Shown piece by piece: positions 32,067-47,961 of a stretch of 64,000 nucleotides of DNA. The notes beneath the pieces were generated by a model. The model was not told the DNA's origin. It was given only the letters and a program-made list of their open reading frames with translations, and searched no databases. Location of the stretch: positions 1,860,001 through 1,924,000 of the forward strand of contig JAZGVH010000002.1 in NCBI GenBank assembly GCA_039889245.1, in the 5' to 3' direction. The position numbers and the translations under genes are program-made. Source of the stretch: Dermatophilaceae bacterium Soc4.6. Its GTDB lineage: Bacteria > Actinomycetota > Actinomycetes > Actinomycetales > Dermatophilaceae. Positions within the stretch are counted from its first letter, which is position 1; every line of letters begins with the position of its first letter.

Positions 32067-32295
32067 GTACGTGTTGCCGCGACGCCTGCTGCGAGGGTGA
32101 ACGTGATCCTCCCCCTGTGGCAGCCACCGGTGAACACGATGCCCGCTACGCGGCGGTGTGACGCAGTTGCCGTCCTCGCGCAGAGGGTCAAGTAGGTGGT
32201 GCGCGCTCGCGTTTTCTTGCACAACCAGACACTGGCTATCCTCACGCCACTAGTCGCCGTCGCCCGCAGCGTGAAAGCGTGCGGCACCCCGTTGA
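32067..32295. other. Gap between virB4-like gene and IS1380 insertion
   Basis: About 230 bases with no gene or recognisable terminator. It marks the left edge of the cargo island between the virB4-like and virD4-like genes. Confidence 0.3.
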
Positions 32296-32300
32296 CTGAG
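32296..32300. repeat. Target-site duplication CTGAG, left of IS1380
   Basis: Identical to 33928-33932 and directly abutting the left inverted repeat. Confidence 0.8.
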
Positions 32301-33927
32301 CCCTGATCCACCGACCGGTCGACGGTAGCGGCGGGTCGTGACACGCGAATGCCCCTGTGGGGCGGGAGAATTGGGTTTACCAAGACACCAGTTCACCGTG
32401 ACCGAAGGGGCATCCGACAGATGCAAGCATTCCACACGATCGACGCGGTTTTCGATGACCCCAACCTGATCGGTGCGGCGGGTCTGGTCCCGGTGATGCG
32501 GTTGGCGCAGCGGGCCGGGTTGCAGCAGCTGCTGGCGGAGCGGTTAAGCGTGTCCTCGCCCAACGCCGCGGTCAAGGCGGGGTGTGTGGTCGCGGGGATG
32601 ATCGCCGGCGCCGACAGCATCGACGACCTCGACGTGCTGCGCCACGGCGCGATGGCCAAGGTCGTGTCCGGGGTGCGGGCACCGTCGACGGTCGGGACGT
32701 TCCTACGCACCTTCACGTTCGGGCACGTCCGTCAGCTCGACGCGATCTCCTCCCAGGTCCTGGCCGGGCTCGCGGGTGTGGTCCCGCGGCTCCTGGCCGG
32801 GACTGATGCGATGGCGTTCGTCGACATCGACGACACGATCCGCGAGGTCCACGGGTACAAGAAGCAGGGCGTCGCGTACGGGTACTCCGGCGTCAAGGGG
32901 TTGAACGCGCAGCTGGCGGTGCTGTCGTCGCCGACCTGTGCACCGGTCATCGCCGCGTCCCGGCTGCGCAAAGGCAACACGATCTCCGGGCAGGGCGGGG
33001 CGAAGCTGGTCGGGGACGCCGTCGCCACCGCTCGTCGGGCCGGGGCGGGCGGGCAGGTGATGGTGCGGGCCGACTCCGGGTACTACCGCCGCGACCTGAT
33101 CACCGCCGCGCTGAAGGCGAAGGCGTGGTTCTCGGTCACCGTCCGAATGAATCCTGCTGTGGTCCGGGCGATCGCGGGCATTCCCGAGACGGCGTGGACC
33201 ACGATCGAGTACCCCCGCGCGATCTGGGACGACGACGAGAAGCGGTGGATCTCCGAAGCACAGGTCGCCGAGACCTGGTTCACCGCGTTCTCGTCCGCAC
33301 GCAAGGCCGAGCAGGTCCCGTGCCGGCTCGTCGTGCGCCGGGTCCAGCGCCTGAACAAGACCGCCATGGCCGCCGGACAAGACGAGCTGTTCCCCAGCTG
33401 GCGTCATCACGGGTTCGTCACCAACTCGACCCTGACCGCGATCACGGCGGACGAGACCCACCGTGACCACGCCATCGTGGAGCAGGTCATCGCCGAGCTC
33501 AAGAGCGGGGCCATGGCCCACGCCCCATCGGGAAGGTTCGACGCCAACGCAGCGTGGCTGGCCCTGGCCTGCCTTGCGTTCAACCTCCTGCGCGCCGCGG
33601 GAGTGGCCGCCTCGACCCGCCACGCAAGGGCGAGGTGGACCACCCTGCGCACCCACCTGGTCGCGGTCCCGGGCAGGGTCGCGTCCTCGGCCCGACGGTT
33701 GATGCTGCACCTGCCGACGAACTGGCCCTGGGCGGATGCCTGGGACAACCTCTGGGCCACCGCCACCGCTACCTCCTGACCATCCGGCCACCCGGCCCCG
33801 AGGAACGACCCGACGTGGAAAAGCCGGACAGACCGGCGGCTCCACCGCGCCACCGTCCGGCAAGGCCCGGGATCACCGGCCGACGACGTCAGCGGACACC
33901 CCAGAAATCAGGGTTGGTGGATCCGGG
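32301..33927 (+). mobile_element. IS1380-family insertion sequence, complete (1627 bp)
   Basis: The transposase gene lies between imperfect terminal inverted repeats. The left end is CCCTGATCCACCGACC (32301-32316) and the right end, read inward on the minus strand, is CCCGGATCCACCAACC (33912-33927), 14 of 16 matching. A 5-bp target duplication CTGAG flanks it exactly (32296-32300 and 33928-33932). Length, single transposase and short duplication fit IS1380. The intact gene and perfect duplication indicate a recent insertion. About 150 non-coding bases follow the transposase inside the element. Confidence 0.9.
32421..33779 (+). CDS. IS1380-family transposase (452 aa)
   Basis: DDE transposase. 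ATG 32421 begins MQAFHTIDAVFDDPNLIGAA. Visible family features are FVDIDDTIREVHGYKKQGVAYGY (first Asp), VMVRADSGYYRRDLI (second Asp) and HRDHAIVEQVIAELKSGAMAH (the Glu region near the end), with ALACLAFNLLRAAG after it, all typical of IS1380 transposases. No frameshift is visible, so it should be functional. A longer frame from 32349 runs into the left end of the IS and is not used. Confidence 0.93.
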   Translation: MQAFHTIDAVFDDPNLIGAAGLVPVMRLAQRAGLQQLLAERLSVSSPNAAVKAGCVVAGMIAGADSIDDLDVLRHGAMAKVVSGVRAPSTVGTFLRTFTFGHVRQLDAISSQVLAGLAGVVPRLLAGTDAMAFVDIDDTIREVHGYKKQGVAYGYSGVKGLNAQLAVLSSPTCAPVIAASRLRKGNTISGQGGAKLVGDAVATARRAGAGGQVMVRADSGYYRRDLITAALKAKAWFSVTVRMNPAVVRAIAGIPETAWTTIEYPRAIWDDDEKRWISEAQVAETWFTAFSSARKAEQVPCRLVVRRVQRLNKTAMAAGQDELFPSWRHHGFVTNSTLTAITADETHRDHAIVEQVIAELKSGAMAHAPSGRFDANAAWLALACLAFNLLRAAGVAASTRHARARWTTLRTHLVAVPGRVASSARRLMLHLPTNWPWADAWDNLWATATATS

Positions 33928-33932
33928 CTGAG
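33928..33932. repeat. Target-site duplication CTGAG, right of IS1380
   Basis: Identical to 32296-32300 and directly abutting the right inverted repeat. Confidence 0.8.
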
Positions 33933-34055
33933 GCCGACAGATGTTCGAAGCCCGCGGTGTCTGCGACCTTCCCCAACGCCTCCGCCTTCCACGAGTTCGC
34001 ACTCTTAAGACGTGGCAGTCAGAGAGGGTGTCGAAGATGAGCCCGAGCGAAGAGT

Positions 34056-34595
34056 TCATCCGCTTACGCCGTCAGGCCAGGTCCTTAAGGGTGCCGTTCC
34101 TGAATCTTCGGGTTCGTCGGCCAGGTATCGCGTGAGTTCGTTGGTGGCGACGCCGAACACCCAGGCCAGGAGGAGTACGTCATCGATATACCCACCCGCT
34201 CGAAAGTCTGGGACGAGGTCATCGGGGGTCACCAGGTAGTGAAGGCTGGCGACAAGGAGTCGTTCCCGCGTCGCGACGCCTGCGCTGGGGGCGTCGCTGT
34301 TCTTGGGATCGTCCATATGGGGGCTGTTGTGGGTCAATGCGGCGGCATCGTCGAGACGGTTGGCCCGGTCACGAAGAAAGCGGACAGCCGCGGCGACTCG
34401 GTCTGCTACCGCCGCGAGCGGCCCGCTTGCCTGGTCCACGGTGTCGACCAGGTCTGCGAGGGCACGAAGCTCCTCTGAGTTTTCGATGATGGTGACTGAG
34501 CGCTCTCGGGAGCGCAGAAAGGCGTGGCTCCGTACAATTTTGGTGACAGTGGGCGTGGGTGTTCGAAATAGCGGCGTCCAAGTCTGCTCGGTCAT
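34056..34595 (-). CDS. DUF1232 (YkvA-like) domain protein (179 aa)
   Basis: The C-terminal third reads RLLVASLHYLVTPDDLVPDF followed by RAGGYIDDVLLLAWVFGVATNEL, the DUF1232 signature (hydrophobic helix, then a PxDxxPD loop and GxxDD). These proteins are thought to be membrane-associated; their function is unknown. The N-terminal 100 residues are predicted helical (LRALADLVDTVDQASGPLAAVADRVAAAVRFL). It is a solitary minus-strand gene between IS1380 and the tyrosine recombinase. Domain known, role here unknown. Confidence 0.75.
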   Translation of the reverse strand: MTEQTWTPLFRTPTPTVTKIVRSHAFLRSRERSVTIIENSEELRALADLVDTVDQASGPLAAVADRVAAAVRFLRDRANRLDDAAALTHNSPHMDDPKNSDAPSAGVATRERLLVASLHYLVTPDDLVPDFRAGGYIDDVLLLAWVFGVATNELTRYLADEPEDSGTAPLRTWPDGVSG

Positions 34596-34825
34596 GACTG
34601 CCCACTCCCTTCAGTTCCGTCCACCACCGTCGCTCCTAACACTATGTCAGCCCGCGACCGGCATCTGGGGGCCAAGGTGGAAGTCCCACGCAGCTCAGCC
34701 CTGACGGTGGCGCCGTCTACCCAAACTCGCGCTCGCGGGGTCCGGCCACTGGTTGACTCGCACGACCCTCATGGACCACGGGTCGTAGCCCGCATTGGGC
34801 GGAAGGGACGCTGGCTTCTGCCCGT

Positions 34826-35740
34826 TCAAACGCCGGCGACGTAGGCGGTGAGGAAGTGGACCCCGTGGCGGTCGAGGTTGCCGCGGGCGCGGTCGTAGTG
34901 CTCGGTGGTGCGGGGGTCGGCGTGGCGGGCCAGGATCTGCGCGTCGCGGAGCGGGACGCCGGCGTCGAGGGCGTTGGTGATCGCGGCGTGCCGCAGGGAG
35001 TGGGGGCTGATGTGGCGGGGGATGCCGGCAGCGGTCGCGATGCGGGTGACCATGCGGTAGACGTCTCGCCGGTCGACGGGCCGGCCCGAGACCGGACGCA
35101 GGACCAGGGGCCCGCTGGTGCGCTGCCCGCGGCAGGCCTCGAGCACCCGCAGCGCGGGGACGGTGATCGGCATGGTGGCGGGTTTGTTGCCTTTGCCGAC
35201 GAGGTGGAGCACGCCGTAGCCGCGCAGGGTGTCGGCGTAGTCCTCGATCCGGACCGCGGCGGCTTCCGATGCGCGGAGGGCGTTGATGCCGAGGAGGTAG
35301 GCGAGGGCGCCGTGGTGCACGGTGACGGTCTGGGCGACCTGGAGGAAGCGGATGAGCTCGAGCCGGTCGAGGCCGTGGGTGCGGGACTCGTCCTGGTGGA
35401 TCTTCGGCAGCCGGGCGTAGACGGCTGGGTCGGAGGCGATGAGGCCGTCGATGTGGGCGAAGCGGAAGTAGCCGCGGACGGCGTGCATCATCGTGTTGAC
35501 CGAGGAGTCCATCATGGGTCGCTCGCCGAGTTGGCGGATGTAGAGCTCGACGTGGGCGCGTTGGATCCCCACCAGCGGGTCCAACCCGTGGGTCTCACCA
35601 CAGGTGAACCACTCCCGCAGCTGGTAGGCGTACAGGGTGTGGGTGCGCCCGGCGTGGCGGGCGAGGTAGGACACGGCCGCCAGCTGCGCGGTGGACATCG
35701 TGGCTGGCTGGAACGGCAGGAGGGTAGTGGGACTGGACAT
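34826..35740 (-). CDS. Tyrosine recombinase/integrase, XerC/D-like (304 aa)
   Basis: Site-specific recombinase with a complete active site. The first catalytic Arg is in INALRASEAAAVRIEDY, the Lys region in LVGKGNKPATMPI, the HxxR box in ISPHSLRHAAITNALD, and the second His and nucleophilic Tyr in ILARHADPRTTEHYDRA. The N-terminal half is a SAM-like core-binding domain (TLYAYQLREWFTCGETHGLDP). It is transcribed away from the hairpin-repeat cassettes that begin about 160 bases beyond its start codon, the same geometry as intI and attI in integrons. It could be the ICE integrase, but ICE integrases normally lie at the element end beside xis, which is 16 kb away. A role in moving the nearby cassettes is inference. 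Confidence 0.9.
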   Translation of the reverse strand: MSSPTTLLPFQPATMSTAQLAAVSYLARHAGRTHTLYAYQLREWFTCGETHGLDPLVGIQRAHVELYIRQLGERPMMDSSVNTMMHAVRGYFRFAHIDGLIASDPAVYARLPKIHQDESRTHGLDRLELIRFLQVAQTVTVHHGALAYLLGINALRASEAAAVRIEDYADTLRGYGVLHLVGKGNKPATMPITVPALRVLEACRGQRTSGPLVLRPVSGRPVDRRDVYRMVTRIATAAGIPRHISPHSLRHAAITNALDAGVPLRDAQILARHADPRTTEHYDRARGNLDRHGVHFLTAYVAGV

Positions 35741-35896
35741 GACGTCACCTCTCGCGGCGACCTGACCGACCGCCTACACCCCGCTCGCCGCCAGCACGGC
35801 GAGGCACCTGGACGGATCGACGCTAGACCCGACACGTTCCCCGAGCCCACGCGGCACACCTTGGGGCAACCTGGCGGCGTCCACAGGCGGAAGCAC

Positions 35897-35961
35897 GCGG
35901 CCGCTCTCGCGGCGGAGTGGGACGGCTGCTCATACAGCCAGTGGGACAAGCGCGCCGTCCC
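35897..35961 (+). repeat. Hairpin repeat site A (next to the recombinase), with 8-bp inverted repeat
   Basis: Contains one hairpin unit GCCGC-TCTC-GCGGC (35900-35913) followed by GGAGTGGGAC. A second inverted repeat, GGGACGGC (35919-35926) and GCCGTCCC (35954-35961), encloses a smaller hairpin GGCTG...CAGCC. GGCGGAAG precedes it, the same octamer that ends sites B and D. All sites share this orientation. Site A differs from B-D by having its own outer inverted repeat, which would suit a primary attachment site. Confidence 0.65.
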
Positions 35962-36063
35962 TGTCGAGTTGGAAGTCGCAGCAGGTCAACTTTCCTGCGA
36001 TCGCGCGATGATCAAACGCCTCGAGGGCCGACTTCGTAAATTGTGGGGAGAATGTCCTAGAGT

Positions 36064-37176
36064 GTGGTGTTCTCGTCAGGAACATGTGACGCTAGCACAA
36101 ACGATGGCCCGGCGAGCCTCGCCACCGAACCGCCCAAGCTGCTGGAGGCTTGGCTGGTGCCTGACGAAGTGCAGGGAACCGGTGGAGGCCCGGGGTTGAC
36201 TGCGCCCCCAGACAAGCTCTCGGCCCTCCTAGCGCGAATTCTCGACCAGTTATCGCTCAGCGCCTGGCTCCCCGCTGCCTATCTCACGGTGGCGCTCGCA
36301 GTCATCTACCGGCTGGGGCAGCAAGGAAACCTCGACGTGGCAGCCGTTGTGGTAGCCCTGACCGCGGATCCCGTGACATTACTCGTAGTGACGATTCCTA
36401 TCGTCGTCTTATCAACCTTAGTGACGCAGTCATTCTCTTTTGAAGCCATCCGCGCACTTGAGGGCTACTGGCAGCGTCGATGGCTCTTGGGGTGGCTTCA
36501 CGACGGCTTAGTTCGGATGCGTATGAGGCACAAGCGCTCACTCCGCACCCGATTTCGCTCGTCGCGCGAAAGCGCGTTCGCGTCTGCTCGCGGCCCAATG
36601 CTCCTGGACCACCGCCCCAGAGCTGTAGTAGACGCCATCGAGGCAGATCTGCTTGAACTTGAGCGGAACGATCTCGATGCTATCTCCGAGCGAATTCTGG
36701 CGAACACCGCTTGGAGGAACTACGGAGACCCGGTGCTTGTGTCAAAGTTGGACCGGATCCGAGCTGCACTTCTTGAATATCCTGAGGACGGGCTGGTGAT
36801 GCCTATGAAGTTGGGCAATGTGTTGCGGGCCACCGAGTCTAAACTCCAGAACGGCCGCGGAGACGTAGGAACATTCGCAATGCGAAGAAGGAATTTGGTC
36901 GACTCGCGAATCCAACTACAGCACGACCAGTTCCGTACCCGTCTTGATATGTACTGCATTCTAGTTTTTGTCGCCCTGCTTGTCGCAGTGGCATGGCCAA
37001 CCCTCACATGGAAGGTGCCCCACGGCTTGCCTGCTGACCTAGCACTATGGCTGATAGCGCCAATGAGCAACCTGCTTCTGGCATTCGCTGCCTATCGTGC
37101 GGCGATCGCCAGTGCGAGGGGGTACTGCACCATCCTGCGGGTCATGGACCAAGCCACCGAGAGTGCGGCGACCTAG
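36064..37176 (+). CDS. Four-TM membrane protein of unknown function (370 aa)
   Basis: Not recognised. Two hydrophobic helices near the N-terminus (LSAWLPAAYLTVALAVIY and PVTLLVVTIPIVVLSTLVT, residues ~62-121) and two near the C-terminus (LDMYCILVFVALLVAVAW and ALWLIAPMSNLLLAFAAY, ~300-350) flank a ~170-residue charged cytoplasmic region rich in Arg and Glu (WRNYGDPVLVSKLDRIRAALL). Such pairs of TM hairpins around a helical sensor occur in membrane-disrupting abortive-infection proteins, but no named family is evident. Base composition is visibly more AT-rich than the ICE backbone, suggesting separate acquisition. The GTG start is uncertain, as there is no clear ribosome site. Its stop overlaps the convergent zinc-ribbon gene. 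Confidence 0.7.
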   Translation: MVFSSGTCDASTNDGPASLATEPPKLLEAWLVPDEVQGTGGGPGLTAPPDKLSALLARILDQLSLSAWLPAAYLTVALAVIYRLGQQGNLDVAAVVVALTADPVTLLVVTIPIVVLSTLVTQSFSFEAIRALEGYWQRRWLLGWLHDGLVRMRMRHKRSLRTRFRSSRESAFASARGPMLLDHRPRAVVDAIEADLLELERNDLDAISERILANTAWRNYGDPVLVSKLDRIRAALLEYPEDGLVMPMKLGNVLRATESKLQNGRGDVGTFAMRRRNLVDSRIQLQHDQFRTRLDMYCILVFVALLVAVAWPTLTWKVPHGLPADLALWLIAPMSNLLLAFAAYRAAIASARGYCTILRVMDQATESAAT

Positions 37177-37421
37177 CGAACGCCCCCAGCGCGTGGTGGG
37201 CCCTGCTGAAGACTGACGTGACATTTCGGACACTCCGAAGGCAACTCTCGGTTGTAACCCTTTTCGCAGACTGGGCAGTGCGAAGACGACATGCTTGCCA
37301 CTTCCCCCGGAGTCCGATCGTCGGTCACCCGCCAAATGTCCTCTTGATGCCATGAACCGTCAAGGCTTTCTGCGCTGAAGTCCCACGCCCCGCTCGCCGG
37401 GTTCCGGATCCACCTCCCCAT
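37173..37421 (-). CDS. Small zinc-ribbon protein (82 aa)
   Basis: Two CxxC knuckles, HCPVCEKGYNRELPSECPKC, spaced 12 residues apart form a zinc ribbon in the C-terminal half. The N-terminal half (MGRWIRNPASGAWDFSAESL) is unassigned. It is convergent with the four-TM gene, overlapping by 4 bases, and begins just before hairpin-repeat site B. It may be a short regulator or partner of the four-TM protein. Real-gene status is likely but not certain. Confidence 0.5.
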   Translation of the reverse strand: MGRWIRNPASGAWDFSAESLDGSWHQEDIWRVTDDRTPGEVASMSSSHCPVCEKGYNRELPSECPKCHVSLQQGPPRAGGVR

Positions 37422-37424
37422 CCG

Positions 37425-37475
37425 AGTGGGACGGCCGCTCGCGCGGCGATGTGGGGTGGCCGCTCACGCGGCGGA
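37425..37475 (+). repeat. Hairpin repeat site B (two units)
   Basis: Two tandem units, 25 bp apart: GCCGC-TCGC-GCGGC (37434-37447) and GCCGC-TCAC-GCGGC (37459-37472), each preceded by GTGGGAC or GTGGGGT and ending in GCGGCGGAAG. Loops differ while stems are kept. It separates the four-TM/zinc-ribbon cassette from pyrE. Confidence 0.8.
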
Positions 37476-37487
37476 AGACGCATCGTG

Positions 37488-38028
37488 TCAACCGGCCTGG
37501 TGTGCCCTGGCGTCGTCGAGGTCGGCCTTGGTCAGCACCGCTCTGGTCTCGACGCCGACGTCGGTCAACGGTCCTTCGGGTTGTCCGCTGCGGTCGATGA
37601 CGCACACGACGGCCGAGACGGTCGCGTCAAGGTCACGCTGGGCGATGATGGCGGCGCGGACGGCACCGCCGGTGGTCAGCACGTCCTCGATCAGGGTGCC
37701 TCGTCGTTGAGAGACGTCCAGGCCTTCGGCGAGCCGGCAGCTGCCGTAGCGCTTGGCCCTCTTCCGGAGGAACACCGCGGGAAGGCCGATGACCGAGCGC
37801 ACCATCCGTCGCGAAAGGGATCCCCCCGAACTCGAGGCCGCCGAGGACCTCGACACCCGCTGGAAGGAGCGAGACCATCGCTTCGGCCACTGCCCGCAGG
37901 ATCGGTGGCTGCGCCTCGAAGGGGTACTTGGCGAAGTACTCGCTGGATGTTTGGCCAGACCGCAGGGTGAACGTCCCGGCGAGGCGGCAGGTCCGATCGG
38001 TCAGCAGCGCCAGGTCCTCTCGATCCAC
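37488..38028 (-). pseudogene. pyrE: Orotate phosphoribosyltransferase, frameshifted
   Basis: From a GTG at 38028 the protein begins MDREDLALLTDRTCRLAG, continues FTLRSGQTSSEYFAKYPF and reaches GGLEFGGIPFA. There the frame must shift (about 37815) to continue as MVRSVIGLPAVFLRKRAK, then RRGTLIEDVLTTGGAVRAA. The last part contains the PRPP-binding loop (LIEDVLTTGG). Joined, it is a complete PyrE of about 180 residues, which makes OMP from orotate and PRPP. Apart from one indel the reading frames are well preserved, so this is either recently broken or a base-calling error. A pyrE copy inside a mobile cassette series is unusual and could serve as a PRTase effector or as a metabolic cassette. Confidence 0.8.
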
Positions 38029-38106
38029 AGGGTCAGGATTCCACGGACGATCGAGCCTGACGAAAGGCCGCGGTGGGACAGTGCGCCTTACGCGAGTAGT
38101 AGAACC

Positions 38107-38220
38107 GGCCCCCCTCGCGGCGGAGGGGGACAGCCGCTCTCGCGGCGGTGTGGGACGGCCGCTCTCGCGGCGGTGTGAGACGGCGGCACTCGCGGAAGGG
38201 GACGGCCGCTTGGCGGCGAC
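38107..38220 (+). repeat. Hairpin repeat site C (about five units, some degenerate)
   Basis: Clear units GCCGC-TCTC-GCGGC at 38133-38146 and 38158-38171 (25 bp apart) and GCCGC-TTG-GCGGC at 38205-38217. A degenerate copy precedes them (38107-38122) and another lies at about 38182-38196. The stem is conserved even where the loop changes. It separates pyrE from the CBASS operon. Confidence 0.8.
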
Positions 38221-38486
38221 AACGAGTACACGGCCGCCACCTCCGGCGACACCGTGAAGTAGCCCCCACGACGCACCACAAACCTAGCGAACCTCGGGGG
38301 CCCAGGACTGGGCCATCCCAGACGCCTGAACGGCTCGGGCCGTGATGACGCGGGGCCTGTCGGCGGGGCGGGGTACCTTTATCACATGGTTGTAGTTCAC
38401 CCCTCTCCGGGGTCGCTGCGCCAGGGTCTGGCGTCTCAGCGTGGAGGCGGCACTATTCCGCCCACGTGTAGAGACGAGGACATCCG

Positions 38487-39530
38487 ATGGGTTTCACCGC
38501 ACAGCTCCTGGACGACATCCGTTCCCAGCTGGCACCCGACCAGGACTCGCTGGACGAGGCCCGGGCCCGCCGCGAAGCGGTCCGCGCCGCAGCGCTGAGC
38601 TTCAACGGCGGTCGCCGCACGTTCGCCTCCGGCTCCCTGGCGCACGCAACCGCGAACTGCCCCGTCCACCTGCGGGACAAGGGGCTGGATGCCGACTGCG
38701 GCGTCGTCCTCGACCGTCGCGTCTACCCCTGGCTGGGGCCGGACTCCTCCTCGGGTGAGGGCCCGAACGAGATCGTGGAGGAGCTGCAGTTCCACATCCA
38801 GAACGAGGTGGCACGTACCTACCCCAAGGTGGAGGTCGCCACGACCAAGCGCGCCATCCTGCTGGCGTTTCACGAGCCGCTGGCCAGCGGGCCGGACCCC
38901 ACGGTCGACCTCGTCCTCGGCCTGGACCGGGTCAGCGCCCAGGGGTTGTGGATTCCGAACACCGAGACCAACGAGTGGAACGCCTCGGACCCCGAGGGGC
39001 ACACCAGCCTGCTGACGGGGGAGCCCAAGAGCCTGCGCGTCACCCGGGCGCGGACCATCCGCCTGGCCAAGGCCGAGAACAAGCGCGTCCCGGACCCGCT
39101 GCTGTGCTCGTTCAACATTGAGGCCCTCGCCCTGATGTTCGTGGCCCCCGGCGCCGGGGTCCCGCAGGCCCTGGTGCGACTGTGGCAAGACGGTGCTGTT
39201 GACCTGCGGGCCCGGCTCACCCCGGACCCAGCCGGGGTGTCGGCACCGATCAAGTGCCTCGACAGGTACGCGGCCGCTGACCGGCTCGACACGGCTGCGT
39301 CCCGCCTGGAGGCGGCGCTGGCCCACGACGAGAACGAGAGCTGGGTCCGTCAGCAGCTTGCCGCCCTGTGGCCGGAGTTCGTGGCCGGCAACGGCAGGGA
39401 GGTCACCAAGGCCCGCGCTCTGGCCGCGTTGAAGGGTGCGTCACCGCTATCGGTCACCACAGGTGGGATTCTCAGCGTCAGCAGTGGGCTGGGACTGAAG
39501 AGCCCGCGGTCGTACGGGACGCTCCGCTGA
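38487..39530 (+). CDS. CBASS-type cGAS/DncV-like nucleotidyltransferase (347 aa)
   Basis: Synthesises a cyclic oligonucleotide signal on infection if it acts as a CD-NTase. The polymerase-beta-like active site is visible: GS at residues 49-50 (RTFASGSLAHA), metal-binding Asp68 and Asp70 in GLDADCGVVLD, and a third Asp at 141 in PTVDLVLGLD. The C-terminal helical domain (FNIEALALMFVAPGAG, LDTAASRLEAALAHDENESW) closes the pocket. The ATG at 38487 has GAGGA about 7 bases upstream. It begins the operon, followed with a 4-base overlap by an E2-like gene and then a membrane effector, the composition of E2-only (type II-C, or short) CBASS. The nucleotide product cannot be read from sequence. Confidence 0.82.
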   Translation: MGFTAQLLDDIRSQLAPDQDSLDEARARREAVRAAALSFNGGRRTFASGSLAHATANCPVHLRDKGLDADCGVVLDRRVYPWLGPDSSSGEGPNEIVEELQFHIQNEVARTYPKVEVATTKRAILLAFHEPLASGPDPTVDLVLGLDRVSAQGLWIPNTETNEWNASDPEGHTSLLTGEPKSLRVTRARTIRLAKAENKRVPDPLLCSFNIEALALMFVAPGAGVPQALVRLWQDGAVDLRARLTPDPAGVSAPIKCLDRYAAADRLDTAASRLEAALAHDENESWVRQQLAALWPEFVAGNGREVTKARALAALKGASPLSVTTGGILSVSSGLGLKSPRSYGTLR

Positions 39531-40036
39531 GGGGTCGCCCGCCCCGGGCACGGCACCCGAAGTCGTGGCTGCAGGACTACCCCACCCGGTCGCGGGTGGA
39601 GGCCGAACTGCGTGCCGCCTACCCCGACCTGCGCGTTCGGCGTCGCCGCGCCGAACGTTCTTGGATCCACGTGTACACCGCCACGGTGGCCGTACCCGGC
39701 TACCCGTCGCGCGTCGTGACCGCAGAGTTCGACCGCCGCCTCGCCAGTCACCCCGAGGTGTACGCGGACGGGCCGACTGAGTCGCCGCACCGGTTCGACG
39801 GTCGCGGTGGCACACGCCTATGCGTCTGGTATCACTCGGACCCGCCGGAGCGTCGCTGGGTCCCCGACGACGGACTGCTGCGCCTGTTCGGCATGGTGCA
39901 GACGCACCTGCTCAAGGAAGCGTGGTGGCGCGAGAGTGGGCAGTGGGTCGGGGACGAAGCCCCGCACCCTGCACGCCCAGACCAATGTCGACTGAACCAG
40001 GCACGACCGGACCACACGAAGGGAGACACCCTGTGA
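39527..40036 (+). CDS. E2-like protein of E2-only CBASS, apparent CTG start (169 aa)
   Basis: Prokaryotic E2-family protein, predicted to regulate the partner nucleotidyltransferase, perhaps by C-terminal conjugation. The core reads PHRFDGRGGTRLCVWYHSDP, then RRWVPDDGLLRLFGMVQTHLL and KEAWWRESGQWVG. Cys99 in RLCVW is the expected catalytic cysteine, and the WVPDDG...L pattern is typical of these E2 domains. No ATG, GTG or TTG exists in this frame between the end of the nucleotidyltransferase gene and the conserved region. The CTG at 39527 overlaps the preceding stop exactly as CTGA, mirroring the ATGA/GTGA couplings elsewhere, and gives the expected length. Alternatives are an upstream ATG at 39368 inside the cyclase gene, or frameshifting. 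Its stop overlaps the effector start (GTGA). Confidence 0.78.
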   Translation: MRGRPPRARHPKSWLQDYPTRSRVEAELRAAYPDLRVRRRRAERSWIHVYTATVAVPGYPSRVVTAEFDRRLASHPEVYADGPTESPHRFDGRGGTRLCVWYHSDPPERRWVPDDGLLRLFGMVQTHLLKEAWWRESGQWVGDEAPHPARPDQCRLNQARPDHTKGDTL

Positions 40037-40674
40037 CCGCGACACCCTCGCCCACCACCACGGCTTCTACCGTCACCATGACCACAACGGAGGTCCCGTC
40101 AGCCCCGCCGGCCGCGACAACGGCAAGCACCGAAGGTGCCGGGGGCGGGGTGCTGGGGCTGCTGCTGACCGGCGCCGTCCTGGCCGCCGTCATCGGCGCC
40201 ATCGTGAACACCGCCTTGGCTCGGCGCAAGAGCCTGGAGGAAGAACGTGCCCGGGTGCGGGGCGTCTTCGCCGAGGCGTTCGAGGCGGTTGCCGCTTACA
40301 AGGAGTTCCCCTACGCAATTCGCCGTCGGCGCCACGACGAGCCCGAAGCCGAACGGGTTCGTATCGCCGAGGCGATGTCCGGCGTCCAAGCCAAGCTGTC
40401 CTACTACCTCGCGTGGACAACTGCGGAGTCTGCGCAGGTCGGCGACGCGTACGCCCACCTGATCAAGGAGCTTCGCCGGGTCGCCGGGACGGCCTGTCAC
40501 GACGCGTGGCTCGCGCCGGCCGCGACCACCGACGCCGACATGAACATTCCCCCCTCTGTGGTCGACCTGAGCGGGCTAAAGCCGCTCGAGGACGCTTACG
40601 TGGCGGCGTCACGGGAACACCTTCAGCAGTTGCTGGCATTTCGGTCCCTGCTGCGGGGGCGGAGCGGTTCGTAG
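40033..40674 (+). CDS. Single-TM CBASS effector candidate (213 aa)
   Basis: GTG at 40033 overlaps the E2 stop. A Thr/Ser/Ala-rich N-terminal segment of ~38 residues is followed by one hydrophobic helix (GVLGLLLTGAVLAAVIGAIVNTAL, ~39-62), then a basic stop-transfer ARRKSLEEERARVR and a ~150-residue helical cytoplasmic domain (FEAFEAVAAYKEFPYAIRRRRHDEPEAERVRIAEAM). Third in a cyclase-E2 operon, it is the expected place of the effector; TM effectors in CBASS disrupt the membrane after binding the cyclic nucleotide. No named effector domain (SAVED, Cap15-type beta barrel, phospholipase) is visible, so it may be a new effector type. Confidence 0.65.
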   Translation: MTATPSPTTTASTVTMTTTEVPSAPPAATTASTEGAGGGVLGLLLTGAVLAAVIGAIVNTALARRKSLEEERARVRGVFAEAFEAVAAYKEFPYAIRRRRHDEPEAERVRIAEAMSGVQAKLSYYLAWTTAESAQVGDAYAHLIKELRRVAGTACHDAWLAPAATTDADMNIPPSVVDLSGLKPLEDAYVAASREHLQQLLAFRSLLRGRSGS

Positions 40675-40815
40675 ATCACGTACAGGCGCAGCTGGCGTTC
40701 GGCGATCAACTGGCCGTCGACGTCGAATGGTGGCGCCGAGCCGCGCGGCCGACCGCGCGTCCCAGCATCTAGACCCATGGCTTCCCCTCTCAGATGGTCG
40801 ACAGGCGGCGAAACG

Positions 40816-40965
40816 GGTCAGCCGCTCTCGCGGCGGTGGGGGACGGCCGCTCTCGCGGCGGTGGGGGACGGCCGCTCTCGCGGCGGTGGGGGACGGCCGC
40901 TCTCGCGGCGGTGGGGGACGGCCGCTCTCGCGGCGGTGGGGGACGGCCGCACGCGCGGCGGAAGG
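40816..40965 (+). repeat. Hairpin repeat site D (six perfect-period 25-bp units)
   Basis: GCCGC stems start at 40821, 40846, 40871, 40896, 40921 and 40946, a strict 25-bp period. The first five have loop TCTC and the sixth has ACGC, and the last ends GCGGCGGAAG like site B. Units join without spacers through GGTGGGGGAC. It separates the CBASS operon from the SIR2 gene. It creates long open frames in several frames, which should not be read as protein. Confidence 0.9.
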
Positions 40966-41050
40966 ACACGGCTGCTTATCGGCGGTCTTGGGCAGCGAGT
41001 GGCTCGCTTCATGGTGGACCGACCGGTGGTTTGATAGGCGACACATACGG

Positions 41051-41056
41051 AAGGAG
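41051..41056 (+). promoter_or_regulatory. Ribosome binding site AAGGAG fixing the SIR2 gene start
   Basis: AAGGAG lies 6 bases before the GTG at 41063. The open frame continues about 340 bases further upstream through repeat site D, so this site decides the true start. Confidence 0.75.
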
Positions 41057-41062
41057 CCCGCT

Positions 41063-44000
41063 GTGCGGCTAGGACAGGTTTCAATGCCCGAGGAGGTCTT
41101 ATCGGCCCTCGACGATGAGCGCTTGGTCATCTTCACCGGCGCTGGCATCTCGCTGGACGCACCCTCGTCCCTTCCGACCTTCCTCGGGCTGGCGGAGAGC
41201 ATCGTCGAACGCGTGCAATCCGACATCGTCCCGAACTCCATTGAGTGGCGAGACCGGCTGGACACACTGCTCGGCCAGTTAGATGAAGATTCCGGCATCG
41301 CGGTCCACGACCTCGCCCGGCTGCTGGTTAGCACACCTGGCTCTCGGCCGAACGCCAACCATCAAGCGTTGGTACGACTCGCCGCCCGCGGGGTTCCACG
41401 TATGGTGACTACCAACTATGATCTGCACCTCTCGACAGTCGCGGACTCGCTAAGCCTTCACCTTGAAACGCATCGCGCGCCTGCCCTACCACTCGGTCAT
41501 GACTTTGGCGGCCTCGTCTATCTCCATGGCGCCGCGGATGGGCCTTCCGATCGCCTAGTTGTCACGGACCGCGATTTTGGTCATGCCTACCTGCGTCAAG
41601 CTTGGGCTACCCGGTTCCTCAGCGAACTGTTCCGCAATTACACCGTGCTCTTCGTCGGCTACAGCCACAGCGATCTTGTGATGCGCTACTTAGGCCTCGC
41701 TCTGGGTCGAGATACAGCGCGGTACGTGCTCACCCATCAGCCTCAGGACCCAATGTGGGCGCGTTTAGGTATCACCGCGGTGGGTTACCCAGTGGTAAAC
41801 CATGACCACAGTGCGCTAACCGAGTGTCTAGCCGCGTGGGCTGATCTCGCAGAGATGGGGCTGTTAGACCACAGACAACGCATCAGGAGTCTCATTGACA
41901 CTGCCTCGGAACTCTCGCCCCCGGAACAGTCCTATCTCGAGGCATCGATTCGCCGACACGACCGCGTTGACTTCTTTTGCTCCGGCGCCAAGAGCCTCCA
42001 ATGGCTCTCATGGGCCGCGAACCAGCCTGTCTTTCAGGCCTTATTCAGTGCGGATCAGCCTGACGACGAGGTCCTCCGCGGGCTTGCCCAATGGTTTGCA
42101 CACACCTACGCCGCCTCGACAGCAGAGCACAGCGAAGCTGCTTGGAGCACCCTCACCAGTGCTGGCGGAGAAGTCAGCATCACCCTGTGGCACGCGCTTG
42201 CACAAGCGCTGCACTCCACCAAAGAGGGCCCTCGACCAGCGCACTTCCGTCGGTGGCTCCGGCTCCTCATGTGGCAGGACCGACCTGAATGTCAAGTTGA
42301 CTTCCTCCAGTACGCCCTCGTAGATACCGACCCCGAGGAGGACCCCGAGATCGCCCTTGAGCTCTTTGAGCATCTCATCGAGCCCCGGTTGCTTCCCAAA
42401 CGTGGCTACGGGCTGTTCGGCCCCACTTTGGAAGCAGCCACACGCGGCTCTGAATACTGGTTGACCGAAAGCTGGATCAAGGTCATCAGGCCGATGCTTC
42501 CCTCTCGCGCAACTGACATCCTTGCCCTTGCCGAGGCGTCCATTCGGAAGCACTACACCCTTGAGACCGCCATTGCGGGCAAATCCTGGGACCACTTCGC
42601 ATTTCGACGCTCAGCCATCCAGCCCCACGCGCAGGATCAGTATCGCAAGCCACTTGACGCCGTCATCGACGCCGCGCGCGATAGCATCGTTTCGATGGCA
42701 TCTGATCGGCCCGCAGAAGCTGCCCGCGTGCTGCAAAGGTGGTCCGCGAGCCGACAGGCGTTGTACAAACGTCTCGCTTTGCATGCATACACGGTCTCCG
42801 ATCTGCTCACGCCCGACCAAAAGCTGGGTCTAGTTGTCGCCAATGACTTGCTCCCCGATCGTGAGGTGGCCCAAGAGCTCTACAAACTTGTCGGCGCCGC
42901 AGCCCCGCAGGCGGGGCGAGAGGCCATCGACTCTTTGGTTCTGAAGCTGCCTCTTGAAGGGACAGATGACGTCACCCGCTACACGCGCTTTCAGTTGTTC
43001 GCTTGGCTTCATAAGCATGGCGCTAGGTCCGAAAGGCTCACTGCGGCAATCGCACAGATGCAAGAGATCGACCCCACGCTCACGCCCGAGGAACACCCGG
43101 GCTTCCGCAGCTGGATGGAGGTTGGGTGGCGGGAGAGCGCCCCGCCCATGACCACGCAGGACTTCCACCGCAAGGTCCGTGACGATCCCAAGGCCGCGAC
43201 GGCGTACGTCCAGACCTTCGAGCCCTTTCCATATCCGCGTCAGGACGTGTCGAGCCTGGAGGACGCCTTGAGCATGCTCGCCGACACAATCCGCATGCAT
43301 CCGGGCGACGGCTTTGCGCTTTGGCCCCATGTCCACGGGGCACCAGAACTGCAGGACACGATCATTAGGGCATGGACGTTCGTCGATAACCCGGACGATC
43401 AAGTCCAGATCATAAACCTGCTCCTTGACTTAGACCTAACTCTTCACTTGAACGCCATGACTCAGTTCTTTATGAGCGCTAATCGTGACGCCCCCGAGCG
43501 ATGGGTTGGCAATCCGTTCACAGAGGAGTTGCTCTGGACCACATGGGAGGCAACAGTCGCCAAATCCGAGGATGACCCGACCGGAGACTGGGTTAGCCGG
43601 GTGATCAACAGCCCAGCGGGCTGCATCGTTGATTTCTGGTTCCAAACCTTCTATCAGGCGTGGGCCAAGGAACGCGATCACTGGACTGGTCTTCGAGAAG
43701 ATCACAGCGCGTTCTTGGACATGGTCCTCAGCGGCAATTCACCGCAACGCCTCACAGCGCTTACCCAGATAGCGGGACGAATCCATCACCTCTACGACGT
43801 CGACCCAGAGTGGTGCCGCAGCGCTTTGCTCCCACTCGGCAATTGGGATACCGACCCACGCACAGCGGCGGCTTTCTGGTGGGGCGTACTTAGCTTTGGC
43901 CGATGGAATCTCAAGCTCCTCGACGATGGACTCCTCGATAGCCTTCTGTCCACGACGGCCCGACTCACTGAGTTCGGCAATGATCAGCGGCAACGGTGGG

Positions 44001-44542
44001 CCGGCATGCTCGCATCGGTTGCCCTCACAGCCGACCCCACAGCGGAGCCCGTCTGGGTGAATCGGCTGACGGCGGCCGCCTCCGTGGAACAACGAACCGC
44101 ATGGCTTCAGTCCATCAGTGAGCAATTCCGTGAGCTGCCCCTTGAGGCCAGGGGACAAGCTTGGCAGATCTGGATCTGCGACTATTGGGCCCAAAGGAAC
44201 CGGGCAGACCCTATGGTTCTCACTGCCAACGAGGCTTCCGAACTCGCCGAGTGTGTGCCTTGGCTGCCAGCAGCGGAGTTGGGGAAAGGAGTAGCCCTGA
44301 CCGTGGAGTCGCCTGCAAGGCTAAACGCCCATGCGGACTTTCTTTCAAGACTGCCGGAAGACTTTCTCAAGCAGTCATCTGAGCTGCTGTCACCCTTCTT
44401 GACGGCACTTATCAAACGCACCGTAGAGCCGTTCTACGGCGACTACTATCTGCGCCCCCTTCTCTCCGGTTTAGTTAAGCGACCGGGCGACTGGAACGCG
44501 CTTCGTGAGGCTGCTTTGCGTTTGGGAATATCCCTTGACTGA
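41063..44542 (+). CDS. SIR2-domain defence protein, DSR-like (1159 aa)
   Basis: Probable NAD+-depleting abortive-infection protein. The SIR2 domain occupies residues ~8-270: FTGAGISLDAPSSLP (residues 24-38), MVTTNYDLHLS (114-124), LVYLHGAADG (151-160, with the catalytic His), and NYTVLFVGYSHSDLVMRYL. About 880 residues follow that look like helical repeats, with many W/L-rich helices (AWLHKHGARSERLTAAIAQM, EEHPGFRSWMEVGWRE) and no Walker A motif, which argues against an Avs-type STAND ATPase. Length and layout resemble DSR1/DSR2, where the C-terminal superhelix senses a phage protein. The gene is visibly more AT-rich than the ICE backbone. Solitary, with its own ribosome site, directly after repeat site D. 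Confidence 0.8.
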   Translation: MRLGQVSMPEEVLSALDDERLVIFTGAGISLDAPSSLPTFLGLAESIVERVQSDIVPNSIEWRDRLDTLLGQLDEDSGIAVHDLARLLVSTPGSRPNANHQALVRLAARGVPRMVTTNYDLHLSTVADSLSLHLETHRAPALPLGHDFGGLVYLHGAADGPSDRLVVTDRDFGHAYLRQAWATRFLSELFRNYTVLFVGYSHSDLVMRYLGLALGRDTARYVLTHQPQDPMWARLGITAVGYPVVNHDHSALTECLAAWADLAEMGLLDHRQRIRSLIDTASELSPPEQSYLEASIRRHDRVDFFCSGAKSLQWLSWAANQPVFQALFSADQPDDEVLRGLAQWFAHTYAASTAEHSEAAWSTLTSAGGEVSITLWHALAQALHSTKEGPRPAHFRRWLRLLMWQDRPECQVDFLQYALVDTDPEEDPEIALELFEHLIEPRLLPKRGYGLFGPTLEAATRGSEYWLTESWIKVIRPMLPSRATDILALAEASIRKHYTLETAIAGKSWDHFAFRRSAIQPHAQDQYRKPLDAVIDAARDSIVSMASDRPAEAARVLQRWSASRQALYKRLALHAYTVSDLLTPDQKLGLVVANDLLPDREVAQELYKLVGAAAPQAGREAIDSLVLKLPLEGTDDVTRYTRFQLFAWLHKHGARSERLTAAIAQMQEIDPTLTPEEHPGFRSWMEVGWRESAPPMTTQDFHRKVRDDPKAATAYVQTFEPFPYPRQDVSSLEDALSMLADTIRMHPGDGFALWPHVHGAPELQDTIIRAWTFVDNPDDQVQIINLLLDLDLTLHLNAMTQFFMSANRDAPERWVGNPFTEELLWTTWEATVAKSEDDPTGDWVSRVINSPAGCIVDFWFQTFYQAWAKERDHWTGLREDHSAFLDMVLSGNSPQRLTALTQIAGRIHHLYDVDPEWCRSALLPLGNWDTDPRTAAAFWWGVLSFGRWNLKLLDDGLLDSLLSTTARLTEFGNDQRQRWAGMLASVALTADPTAEPVWVNRLTAAASVEQRTAWLQSISEQFRELPLEARGQAWQIWICDYWAQRNRADPMVLTANEASELAECVPWLPAAELGKGVALTVESPARLNAHADFLSRLPEDFLKQSSELLSPFLTALIKRTVEPFYGDYYLRPLLSGLVKRPGDWNALREAALRLGISLD

Positions 44543-44794
44543 AGCGCTGCGAGCATAATCCATCTGGGCACCTCGCGGCCGCTCGCTGCTGCGTCATAGT
44601 GGGCGGTAGGACGCAGGCGCCTCCGGACGTGTCGGAGGGCGGAGTGCGGACTGCCGTTCCGTCAGCCTCCGGCGGGAAGCGGTTCCGCGATGCCTGCATT
44701 GGCCGATCGACGCGCCCTGACGTGGAGCTGACGGCCAGCCACGCTTTGGGGTAGTGGTCCCGCGGGAGGCGCCGTAGTGGGAACGGCGCGGGGT
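44543..44794. other. Gap between SIR2 gene and ISAs1
   Basis: About 250 bases with no clear gene. CGCGGCCGCTCGCTGCTGCG at 44573-44592 followed by AGTGGGCGG weakly resembles the hairpin unit and could be a decayed end of the cassette series. Confidence 0.3.
44785..44794. repeat. Target-site duplication GGCGCGGGGT, left of ISAs1
   Basis: Identical to 46099-46108. Confidence 0.85.
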
Positions 44795-46218: not shown

Positions 46219-47961
46219 GTGCACCAGGGCACACCACTGAGATACGACGACCGCGTCTTTGCGGGCGCCATCCCTGGTGTCCTTGTCGTTTGGGGAGCGC
46301 TGTGGTCTGGTGCAGCCCTGTCCTCCGTCCTGACTGGGCGAGGGGTTCCGGCGGTCTCGTCTGCGGCTCCGCTCCTGGCACTCCTGACCCCCGGCGACCC
46401 GGCACGCGCTTGGGGCCATCCGATGGCGCCCCCTTGGCTGTACTGGTCCTGCACCATCGCGGTTGTCCTGGTCGGCGTGGCGCTGGCCGCCTTGGCGTAT
46501 CGCCTGCGGGTCGCGACACCGCGGGTCCCGGACATCCCCGAGGGCTGCGCCCCGGCGCGGATCGTCCGGCGGGTGGCCGGGGACCGGCAGTTGTCGGCCC
46601 GCGCCCACATCCTGCGGCCCGGATGGGCCCCGTCTACGATCACCGGTGTCGGGTTCCAGCTCGGCACGTCCCGAGGCATCCGGTGCTTCTCCTCCATCGA
46701 GGACTCGGTCATCGTCCTCGGACCGCCGCGATCGGGCAAGGGCCTCCACCTGGCGATCCCGATGATCCTCGACGCACCCGGTGCCGTGCTCACCACGAGC
46801 ACCCGCCCGGATAGTCTCGCCGTCACCCTGCACGACCGCAGCCGAAGGGGGCCGGTGGCGGTGTTCGACCCGCAGGGCCTCGCGCCCGGCATCCCCTCCG
46901 CGACGCGCTGGTCCCCTATTCGTGGCTGCCATGACCCCCACGTCGCCATGGTCCGTGCCAAGGCGCTCACCGCTGGAACCGCTGCCGGCACGACGGACTC
47001 GACGTTCTGGCAAGCCTCCGCCGAGCAGGCCGTCCGCTGTCTGCTGCACGCCGCCGGACTCGGCGAGGTCACCACCGCCGACCTCTACCGGTGGTCCCTG
47101 TCCGCGGTCCAGGCGCGGGAGGCGACGATGATCCTGGCCACCCACCCGGACGCGGCCACCGCGTGGCACCAGGCGTTGGACGCGATCATCAACTCCGACT
47201 CCCGCCAACGGGACTCGGTCTGGGCCATGGTGACGATCGCCTTCACTGCCCTCGCCGACCCGAAGGTCCTGGACGCCCTCTCGCCGACCCCAGGTGAGGA
47301 GTTCGACCCCGAGACGTTTCTACGGGGGGGCGGAACCGTCTACCTCCTGGGGACCTCCACCGGTACCGCTGCCACCGCCGGCCTGGTTGCTGCGTTCGTC
47401 GAGGACGTCGTCGAGACCGCACGCCGTCTCGCCGCCAGATCCCCGGCCGCCCGGCTCAACCCGCCGCTGACCTTGGTCCTGGACGAGGCGGCCAACTACT
47501 CGCTGCCTTCTCTGCCCTCCCTGATGTCCGACGGCGGCGGGACGGGCATCAGCACCGCGGTCGTCCTGCAGTCCCTGGCCCAGGCGCGAGACGTGTGGGG
47601 CGAACACGCCGCGTCGGCCATCTGGGAGGCCGCCATCGTCAAGGTCATCCTCGGCGGCGGCTCCAACGCCCGCGACCTGCAGGACCTGTCCACCCTGGTC
47701 GGACAACGTGACGAGCACACCACCACCAGCAGCCACACCGGGGATGGACACCGCTCCACCTCAACCTCCACCCACAAGGTCCCGATCCTCGAGCCTGCCG
47801 CGTTGCGGACCCTGCCGTTCAGCACCGCGATCCTGCTGCTGCGCTCCGCGCCACCGATCCACCTGACCCTGCGCCGGTGGACCGCCCGCTCGGACGCCAC
47901 CCAGCTCACCGCCGACCGAGCCGCCGTCGAAGAGGATCTGCGTGCGGGCCAGCGTGCTTGA
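46219..47961 (+). CDS. VirD4/TraG-like type IV coupling protein (580 aa)
   Basis: Delivers the relaxase-DNA complex to the channel. Two N-terminal membrane helices (AGAIPGVLVVWGALWSGAAL and CTIAVVLVGVALAALAYRL) precede the ATPase, with Walker A GPPRSGKG near residue 168 and Walker B region LVLDEAANYSLPSLPSLMSDGG near 418. The pattern STRPDSLAVTLHDRSRRGPVAVFDPQG is typical of VirD4-like proteins of actinobacterial ICEs. GTG 46219 has GGAGG 6 bases upstream. In related elements it normally follows the virB4-like gene directly. Confidence 0.88.
   Translation: MHQGTPLRYDDRVFAGAIPGVLVVWGALWSGAALSSVLTGRGVPAVSSAAPLLALLTPGDPARAWGHPMAPPWLYWSCTIAVVLVGVALAALAYRLRVATPRVPDIPEGCAPARIVRRVAGDRQLSARAHILRPGWAPSTITGVGFQLGTSRGIRCFSSIEDSVIVLGPPRSGKGLHLAIPMILDAPGAVLTTSTRPDSLAVTLHDRSRRGPVAVFDPQGLAPGIPSATRWSPIRGCHDPHVAMVRAKALTAGTAAGTTDSTFWQASAEQAVRCLLHAAGLGEVTTADLYRWSLSAVQAREATMILATHPDAATAWHQALDAIINSDSRQRDSVWAMVTIAFTALADPKVLDALSPTPGEEFDPETFLRGGGTVYLLGTSTGTAATAGLVAAFVEDVVETARRLAARSPAARLNPPLTLVLDEAANYSLPSLPSLMSDGGGTGISTAVVLQSLAQARDVWGEHAASAIWEAAIVKVILGGGSNARDLQDLSTLVGQRDEHTTTSSHTGDGHRSTSTSTHKVPILEPAALRTLPFSTAILLLRSAPPIHLTLRRWTARSDATQLTADRAAVEEDLRAGQRA

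Follow-up and report, generated by a model that had tools for sequence, protein, structure and literature searches.

The 64,000-nucleotide stretch of the Dermatophilaceae bacterium Soc4.6 genome analysed here (contig JAZGVH010000002.1, positions 1,860,001–1,924,000; "the window") contains a tyrosine recombinase gene beside a series of unrelated genes separated by short repeated sites. An earlier note on this DNA had described the recombinase and four repeat sites (A–D) as an integron-like series of defence cassettes. The recombinase is complete and the four sites are real, all their units lying on the plus strand; the end points proposed for the array did not hold, as it extends from 32150 to 44614, with a perfect core left of the recombinase, 84 bp past a VirB4-like open reading frame (ORF), and a variant core at its right edge. 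Conjugation genes flank it on both sides. The features of this putative gene-cassette array are as follows.

32150–32164, plus strand: core site 0, GCGGCGGTGTGACGC, an exact core match at the left edge of the array
32349–33779, plus strand: transposase gene of an insertion sequence (IS) between site 0 and the recombinase (ORF; member of alignment A4)
34056–34595, minus strand: DUF1232 protein, a passenger (Pfam PF06803, E 1.3e-6)
34826–35740, minus strand: tyrosine recombinase of 304 amino acids (aa), complete ORF (PF00589, E 2.8e-20; PF02899 N-terminal domain)
35741–35893, minus strand: conserved 5′ leader of the recombinase (ribosome-binding-site (RBS)-like block, GCCGC-N4-GCGGC dyad, -10-like TAGCGT)
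35894–35918, plus strand: site A, one 25-bp unit with five mismatches
36064–37176, plus strand: cassette 1, 370-aa protein of unassigned family (ORF)
37173–37421, minus strand: cassette 1, small protein with a zinc ribbon (PF07191, E 0.0069, short of the curated cut-off)
37428–37477, plus strand: site B, two 25-bp units (37428, 37453), the second ending in GCGGCGGAAGACGCA, one base shorter than the core
37488–38028, minus strand: cassette 2, pyrE-like gene in two frames (ORFs 37633–38028 and 37488–37856; named by eye)
38127–38220, plus strand: site C, two clear 25-bp units (38127, 38152) and a degenerate tail, with no clean terminal core
38487–40674, plus strand: cassette 3, short type II CBASS (PADLOC)
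40815–40969, plus strand: site D, six 25-bp units in register (40815–40964), with terminal core GCGGCGGAAGGACAC at 40955–40969
41063–44542, plus strand: cassette 4, SIR2-domain protein, Dsr1-like (PF13289, E 1.2e-15; Dsr1, E 2.3e-55)
44600–44614, plus strand: site E, variant core TGGGCGGTAGGACGC (TGGGCG-type), closing cassette 4

The 25-bp unit, GGGACGGCCGCTCTCGCGGCGGTGT, lies on the plus strand at sites A, B, C and D, and its first 24 bases (GGGACGGCCGCTCTCGCGGCGGTG) match eight times in the window with up to three mismatches, always on that strand, against no match in 100 shuffles. PADLOC matches bear out the CBASS with an E2 protein and the SIR2 gene that had been named from the letters alone: the former consists of a cyclase (38487–39530, E 3.3e-135), an E2 protein (within ORF 39368–40036, E 3.5e-33) and a one-transmembrane effector (within ORF 39820–40674, E 4e-25), and the start codon of the latter was picked inside ORF 40727–44542. 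The pyrE unit had been taken for self-contained; neither of its pieces matches Pfam at E 0.01, and since its two ORFs occupy different frames, the gene is probably broken. The 370-aa protein has no Pfam or PADLOC match. DDE transposase families are among the Pfam matches of the alignment that includes the transposase ORF (not resolved to the individual member), and we take this gene to be IS1380-like.

Comparison with related genomes revealed that the site common to such arrays is a directional core of about 15–19 bp, [CT][TA][CG]GCGGCG-RWRN-GACGC[AG]. Set 1 took 20 recombinase copies from 16 relative genomes and 10 genera, with 20 kb of flank on the cassette side of each, oriented by the recombinase; in these flanks the strict core GCGGCG-RWRN-GACGC occurs 38 times on the cassette strand and never on the other. 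With one mismatch allowed, the counts are 88 versus three, and the reversed motif is found seven times on the cassette strand; at this threshold one flank (L224), whose leader core is interrupted, holds no site, and four flanks (L211, L216, L223, L227) hold one each. A position weight matrix (PWM) built from the set 1 sites, leaving out the L217 and L221 rows, was applied to 20 further stretches selected mostly for holding strict cores (set 2). Sites lie on a single strand in each of the 19 site-bearing stretches, compared with four matches in DNA read backwards. Across all 40 stretches, 188 site groups fall on the majority strand and none on the opposite one, with one site counted twice in the overlap of L220 and L230. 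GCGGCG-type cores in these stretches number 120 versus 0 (control 2), and the TGGGCG variant that closes cassette 4 is found 11 times on the cassette strand and once on the opposite strand (control 1). The 151 intervals between sites have a median length of 1,400 bp (quartiles 819 and 2,370). Genome-wide, strict cores number 148 in 13 recombinase-bearing genomes (reversed control 51) and 11 in seven genomes without the recombinase (reversed control 30).

The same core terminates a conserved leader at the recombinase gene. We aligned the 5′ regions of 33 recombinase copies, four from this genome and 29 from relatives, and found an RBS-like block, the dyad and a -10-like block conserved up to GCGGCG-RWRN-GACGC, with unrelated sequences beyond the core; a 510-bp stretch counted from 190 bp upstream of the start codon comprises 30 distinct sequences among the 33 copies. 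The GCCGC-N4-GCGGC dyad, one mismatch allowed, is present in 28 of the 33 leaders, versus 3.4% of shuffles, the RBS-like block in 32 (loose pattern) and the -10-like block in 16 (exact pattern). A leader conserved to a core with so many different sequences behind it may represent an attI-like insertion point, although some leader cores, that of the window copy included, are degenerate and at least one (L224) has IS110-type DNA inserted in it; the combined leader-plus-core pattern has no match in the window. Further sites in the same orientation also lie within 8 kb on the 3′ side of 15 of 20 recombinase copies, about four of them within roughly 500 bp, and are absent there from the other five. 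The earlier note had placed the recombinase beside the cassettes, facing away from them; given the sites behind so many copies, it is no fixed platform at one end, and its gene often looks like one cassette among others inside an array.

In this genome, the core often stands at the end of arrays of the 25-bp hairpin unit. The unit matches 82 times across the 4.8 Mb of the genome when up to three mismatches are allowed (reversed control 1), the matches falling into about eleven clusters and one lone match (L161, dropped from further work on this genome); each cluster's units lie on one strand at this threshold, and two weaker matches, with five and six mismatches, lie on the opposite strand. 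Of the 85 units found with up to four mismatches, 81 have a perfect GCCGC-N4-GCGGC stem. At least 14 unit arrays terminate in a single core that deviates from the motif at no more than one position, for instance ...CTCTCGCGGCGATAGGACGCA. Among 57 relatives, the unit has nine matches in seven genomes (reversed control 5). An overly loose pattern scan of the genome contigs returned 119 stretches with, among the matches listed, one or two per stretch. Another genus carries a 24-bp unit of its own (core plus GCCGCTTC) in ten tandem copies (L233, about 9249–9489 in site orientation); tandem arrays of the putative site are, by this sequence, not unique to the source species. Arrays that end in a core and a core-containing tandem in another genus suggest that the hairpin units are site DNA elaborated in tandem. 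The occurrence of the same stem in the 25-bp units and in recombinase leaders suggests that the dyad is tied to the recombinase, as a candidate pair of binding half-sites. The idea that the hairpin repeat is the site thus survives in its link to the recombinase and fails as regards the site itself. We rejected the hairpin as a universal recombination site on its scarcity in the relatives, where single cores are found instead, and on the tandem variant in other genera.

Cassette turnover, cassettes in common and breakpoints at the core became apparent when arrays were compared with one another. Two arrays of this genome (L151 and L157) share 745 bp at 94% identity, with all four ends within repeat arrays. 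Genomes G188 (L229, 8061–8717) and G119 (L218, 7905–8562), from two genera, have a 656/657-bp cassette in common (85% over 508 bp) between unrelated neighbours, the second site of the G119 cassette being weak (PWM 14.9). Genome G136 contains two recombinase copies (L226/L227) that are 99.4% alike together with their next two cassettes and diverge exactly after GCGGCG; the first of these cassettes recurs in an array of G081 and beside a G143 recombinase, the homology with the latter copy ending within the core. G188 itself holds one cassette in two arrays (L229/L249), whose homology runs out at the core on one side; the pairs L226/L228 (second copy) and L229/L249 both lose homology within the core or at its end. 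Over 57 alignments, leaving out those shorter than 150 bp, more than 99.5% identical or overlapping the recombinase, 29 of 228 alignment ends are no more than 25 bp away from a site, where 3.6 were expected and the maximum in 2000 draws was 12; about 12 of the 29 are leftover leader alignments that do not bear on cassettes, and the L226 and L227 rows are not independent. An invariant cassette order, which the earlier note had set against its own proposal, is not what the relatives have, their cassettes being variable. As a separate observation, the segment L159:557–4246 spans 3.7 kb here, and its matching flanks are 18 bp apart in the congener G002.

The cargo of these arrays is mixed. A simple gene caller predicted 258 cassette genes, 125 along the array and 133 against it; single-gene cassettes divide into 43 along and 38 against. 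Removing eight recombinase homologues and proteins shorter than 80 aa left 230, and a further 21 were dropped, so that 209 were scanned in two alignments. In these proteins of relatives, defence families stand beside cytochrome P450, methyltransferases, arginyl-tRNA synthetase and others (at least 25 families per table). The 51 cassette proteins of the source genome match 14 PADLOC families at E≤1e-10, which amount to at most eight kinds of protein (the CBASS E2 being outside the 51), and its cassettes also carry K+ transporter, luciferase-like and glycosyltransferase genes. Defence cargo includes CBASS, Dsr1, DrmD, SoFic, RmrA/T, PD-Lambda-1, GmrSD, HEC-06 and AriA, accompanied by toxin-antitoxin parts and metabolic genes. 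A specialisation in defence genes, as had been proposed for this system, is therefore unsupported in the source genome and in relatives alike.

Some sites have themselves been targeted by mobile DNA. IS110-type elements sit after the GCGGC of the core at L158:3520–5014, L154:10396–11892, L151:7644–9141 and L224 near 1165 (site orientation), assigned through PF01548 and PF02371 in the L151 copy and through homologues found by tblastn. Elements of this type that target attC form what we take to be the IS1111-attC group. One published study describes attC sites of integrons as targets of ISKpn4 and ISPst6, which are IS1111-family elements (PMC11187229).

The recombinase has the residues presumed to be catalytic (R156, K183, H247-x-x-R250, H273, Y282) in columns that are invariant among 16 sequences, including a phage integrase, and its length suggests that it has no arm-binding domain; a structure prediction was discarded at a mean pLDDT (predicted local distance difference test) of 35.8. 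Matches at E≤1e-40 occur in 63 of 186 genomes of the family, including this one, and in 22 of 53 genera, with up to seven in one genome. About 50 of the 63 genomes (counted by hand) carry a match of at least 63% identity, some of them fragments; the remaining matches form a group of 40–45% identity across the family, which we took for another recombinase. The source genome has paralogues at 1814860 (93%, full length), 1406798 (92%, residues 4–291) and 2420305 (88%, broken). The first two each lie about 130 bp from a 25-bp array situated directly 5′ on the opposite strand, as in the window, so that the unit is indeed scattered through the genome, as the earlier note had feared, but not without a link to the recombinase. 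A scattered repeat unconnected with the enzyme was rejected on these arrays, on the one-strand cores in recombinase flanks and on the dependence of core counts on recombinase presence. In 396 genomes sampled elsewhere in the order, one family (f14; G449, L271) has an 85% recombinase whose contig also carries two cores on the matching strand, and another (f5; G039, L276) a broken 63% recombinase with four cores persisting within 8 kb; judged by these sequences, the putative system reaches two further families of the order. Recombinase fragments were noticed in or beside arrays L231, L232, L220, L227 and L233, in genomes that also hold intact copies, as expected if the recombinase gene duplicates and decays as a cassette. 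Viral contigs yielded one weak relative (24%) and two exact core matches, and the phage stretch examined (L250, 5.9 kb) contains no core at PWM ≥10.

These observations make it likely, in our judgement, that the locus is an array of gene cassettes assembled through site-specific recombination at the core, the most probable enzyme being the 304-aa tyrosine recombinase; we infer this identity, as well as the circles, the binding role of the dyad and the direction of events described here, from the comparisons above. Circular cassettes, each consisting of a gene or small operon and one core, would insert at cores in a single orientation, with the leader-terminal core serving as an attI-like insertion point, and excision would proceed by recombination between neighbouring cores. 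In the simplest view, the dyad of the leader and of the tandem units would be a pair of recombinase-binding half-sites, and the tandem 25-bp units would have arisen by duplication of site DNA. Together with its leader, the recombinase gene would behave as a cassette, which would explain the several copies and fragments per genome.

Several observations weigh against this proposal. The RWRN spacer varies from site to site, and classical tyrosine recombination needs matching overlaps; a variable spacer may fit double-stranded exchange with mismatches, or single-stranded exchange resolved by replication. Some site groups have no recombinase nearby, so that either the enzyme acts in trans or these groups are remnants. 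Sites A and C and the leader core in the window are degenerate, and other arrays of this genome also have no clean terminal core. The leader dyad could be a regulatory or RNA feature. The strand in the 188:0 count is the majority strand of the sites, only set 1 having been oriented independently. Of the 228 alignment ends, 199 are not near any site, and in an empty-site comparison at a recombinase-free cluster an alignment with the congener was obtained on just one side of the array.

A different history could produce a similar picture if islands with phage-like integrases and a shared attachment (att) core had landed in tandem, leaving the cassettes as their decayed remains. The recurrence of recombinase copies and fragments inside arrays, up to seven per genome and with sites behind 15 of 20 copies, would fit this, as would the closest named relatives found for the enzyme, Arthrobacter phage integrases at about 50% identity. 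Such tandem landing would, however, leave integrases throughout, whereas recombinase homologues make up just 8 of the 258 cassette genes; the intervals are short, with ordinary single genes, the same cassette occurs in different arrays without an integrase, and arrays lie at many places per genome. We regard this history as improbable compared with cassette capture at the core.

Integrons are platforms that collect loose genes as cassettes and are known above all for their part in the spread of antibiotic resistance. An integron proper whose IntI and attC had drifted past recognition would have the same architecture of recombinase, leader site, one-way sites, recombinase-free clusters and IS110-type site targeting. 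The integron integrase model TIGR02249 does match the C-terminal part of the recombinase, but at 43.2 bits versus a cut-off of 265 and confined to profile positions 240–299 of 315; the XerC and XerD models score higher (95.7 and 84.5 bits), yet below their own cut-offs. Among solved structures the closest relative is XerD (E 1.5e-14), with IntI4 aligning over 57 residues only. Folding of the single sites points the same way: the fold z of 90 sampled sites is -0.33, compared with -0.36 and -0.41 in neighbouring DNA, which gives no folding excess, and the best inverted-core score of 147 single sites is -5.64 upstream, -6.75 downstream and -6.46 at random, at most a slight upstream excess; the clear GCCGC-N4-GCGGC hairpin is a feature of tandem units and leaders. 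GCCGC is somewhat commoner within 40 nt upstream of single sites (29 of 147, versus 17 and 17 further away), a slight excess in favour of this reading, but the genes are not co-oriented. We rejected a true integron on the model score and on single-site folding, and consider a divergent one very improbable. It is equally hard to credit that the repeats are passive, being regulatory or terminator-like dyads or a MITE-like (miniature inverted-repeat transposable element) repeat spread by another element, their likeness to cassette borders being a product of gene turnover in variable islands: the spread of the unit over about 11 clusters here with its rarity in 57 relatives (nine matches, seven genomes, reversed control 5) and the use of the core as a target by IS110 elements would suit this, but the one-strand arrangement is tied to the recombinase in many genera, separate pairs break at one core position, and leader conservation stops at the core.

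The DNA around the array belongs to a mobile element. A TrwC relaxase (18147–21443) and TrbL/VirB6 (27570–29171) precede it, and it begins directly 3′ of the first of the two genes that border it:

30615–32066, plus strand: VirB4-like ATPase (labelled from plasmid relatives and from its place among conjugation genes)
46219–47961, plus strand: type IV coupling protein, right of the array (PF12696, E 8.2e-29; PF02534, E 3.2e-20)

Together with a DnaG-like primase, these genes mark 18147–50419 of the window as a predicted integrated conjugative element or plasmid that carries the array, and such an element could move the array between cells. The VirB4-like ORF has no Pfam match at E 1e-5; its plasmid relatives, all below 60% identity, are annotated as ATP-binding protein, hypothetical protein and, once, conjugal transfer protein TraC, and it is matched in 47 of 186 family genomes, including this one (E≤1e-60). 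A congener contains two copies of the end of this gene, each followed by about 170 bp of similar sequence up to GCGGCG, beyond which the DNA differs. In genome G086 (L307), the VirB4-like and coupling genes are separated by about 180 bp, in which no core reaches PWM 13, and no ancestral core is readable. Elsewhere in the window, large minus-strand ORFs occupy 3010–15175, one of which (9944–15175) has DEAD helicase and MZB domains; this looks like a further defence operon, possibly DISARM-like.

Searches of one open-access library turned up no description of such a cassette system (preprints and most subscription papers lay outside this scope), and complete integrons are reported as lacking in Actinobacteria (PMC9024848). 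If our proposal is true, cassette capture evolved at least twice, without IntI or a folded attC, and cassette arrays can exist without the single-stranded attC mechanism. The system would then account for how defence genes and other accessory genes turn over in these bacteria, allow cassette genes of uncharacterised function to be delimited exactly by the core motif, provide DNA assembly in high-GC hosts with a new small recombinase, and make testable why integrons are missing from this phylum.

The proposal that the locus is an integron-like actinobacterial system distinct from IntI and attC is well supported by directional cores in many genera, a leader followed by changing sequence and cassette breaks at the core. 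Like integrons, it combines a recombinase and a conserved adjacent site with long one-way arrays in which a single site bounds each of the unrelated genes, and it likewise has recombinase-free site clusters, cassettes common to different arrays and species, and site-targeting IS110-type insertions. Unlike in integrons, the recombinase is not IntI by the curated NCBIfam model, the sites are short cores without attC-like folding, the genes face both ways instead of being mostly co-oriented, and the recombinase, which can be multicopy, often lies inside arrays, with a median interval of 1.4 kb. Xer-type and phage tyrosine recombinases similarly pair a SAM-like core-binding domain with a catalytic domain in about 300 aa, and act on one chromosomal or phage att pair. 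Tandem accretion of integrative and cis-mobilizable elements also yields units split by direct repeats of one att core, but there the units are whole elements at one locus, whereas the units here are spread over many loci and mostly consist of a single gene or a small operon. In the presumed IS1111-attC group (ISKpn4 and ISPst6 in PMC11187229), IS110-type elements likewise sit precisely in cassette recombination sites, whereas the target here is this core, between GCGGC and GRWRN. By comparison, then, the system would not be an integron by class while working like one, and we lean towards viewing it as a second, independently evolved capture platform, with a phage-type or Xer-like recombinase, short and probably double-stranded cores, and a recombinase gene that is itself a mobile cassette, riding on conjugative elements.

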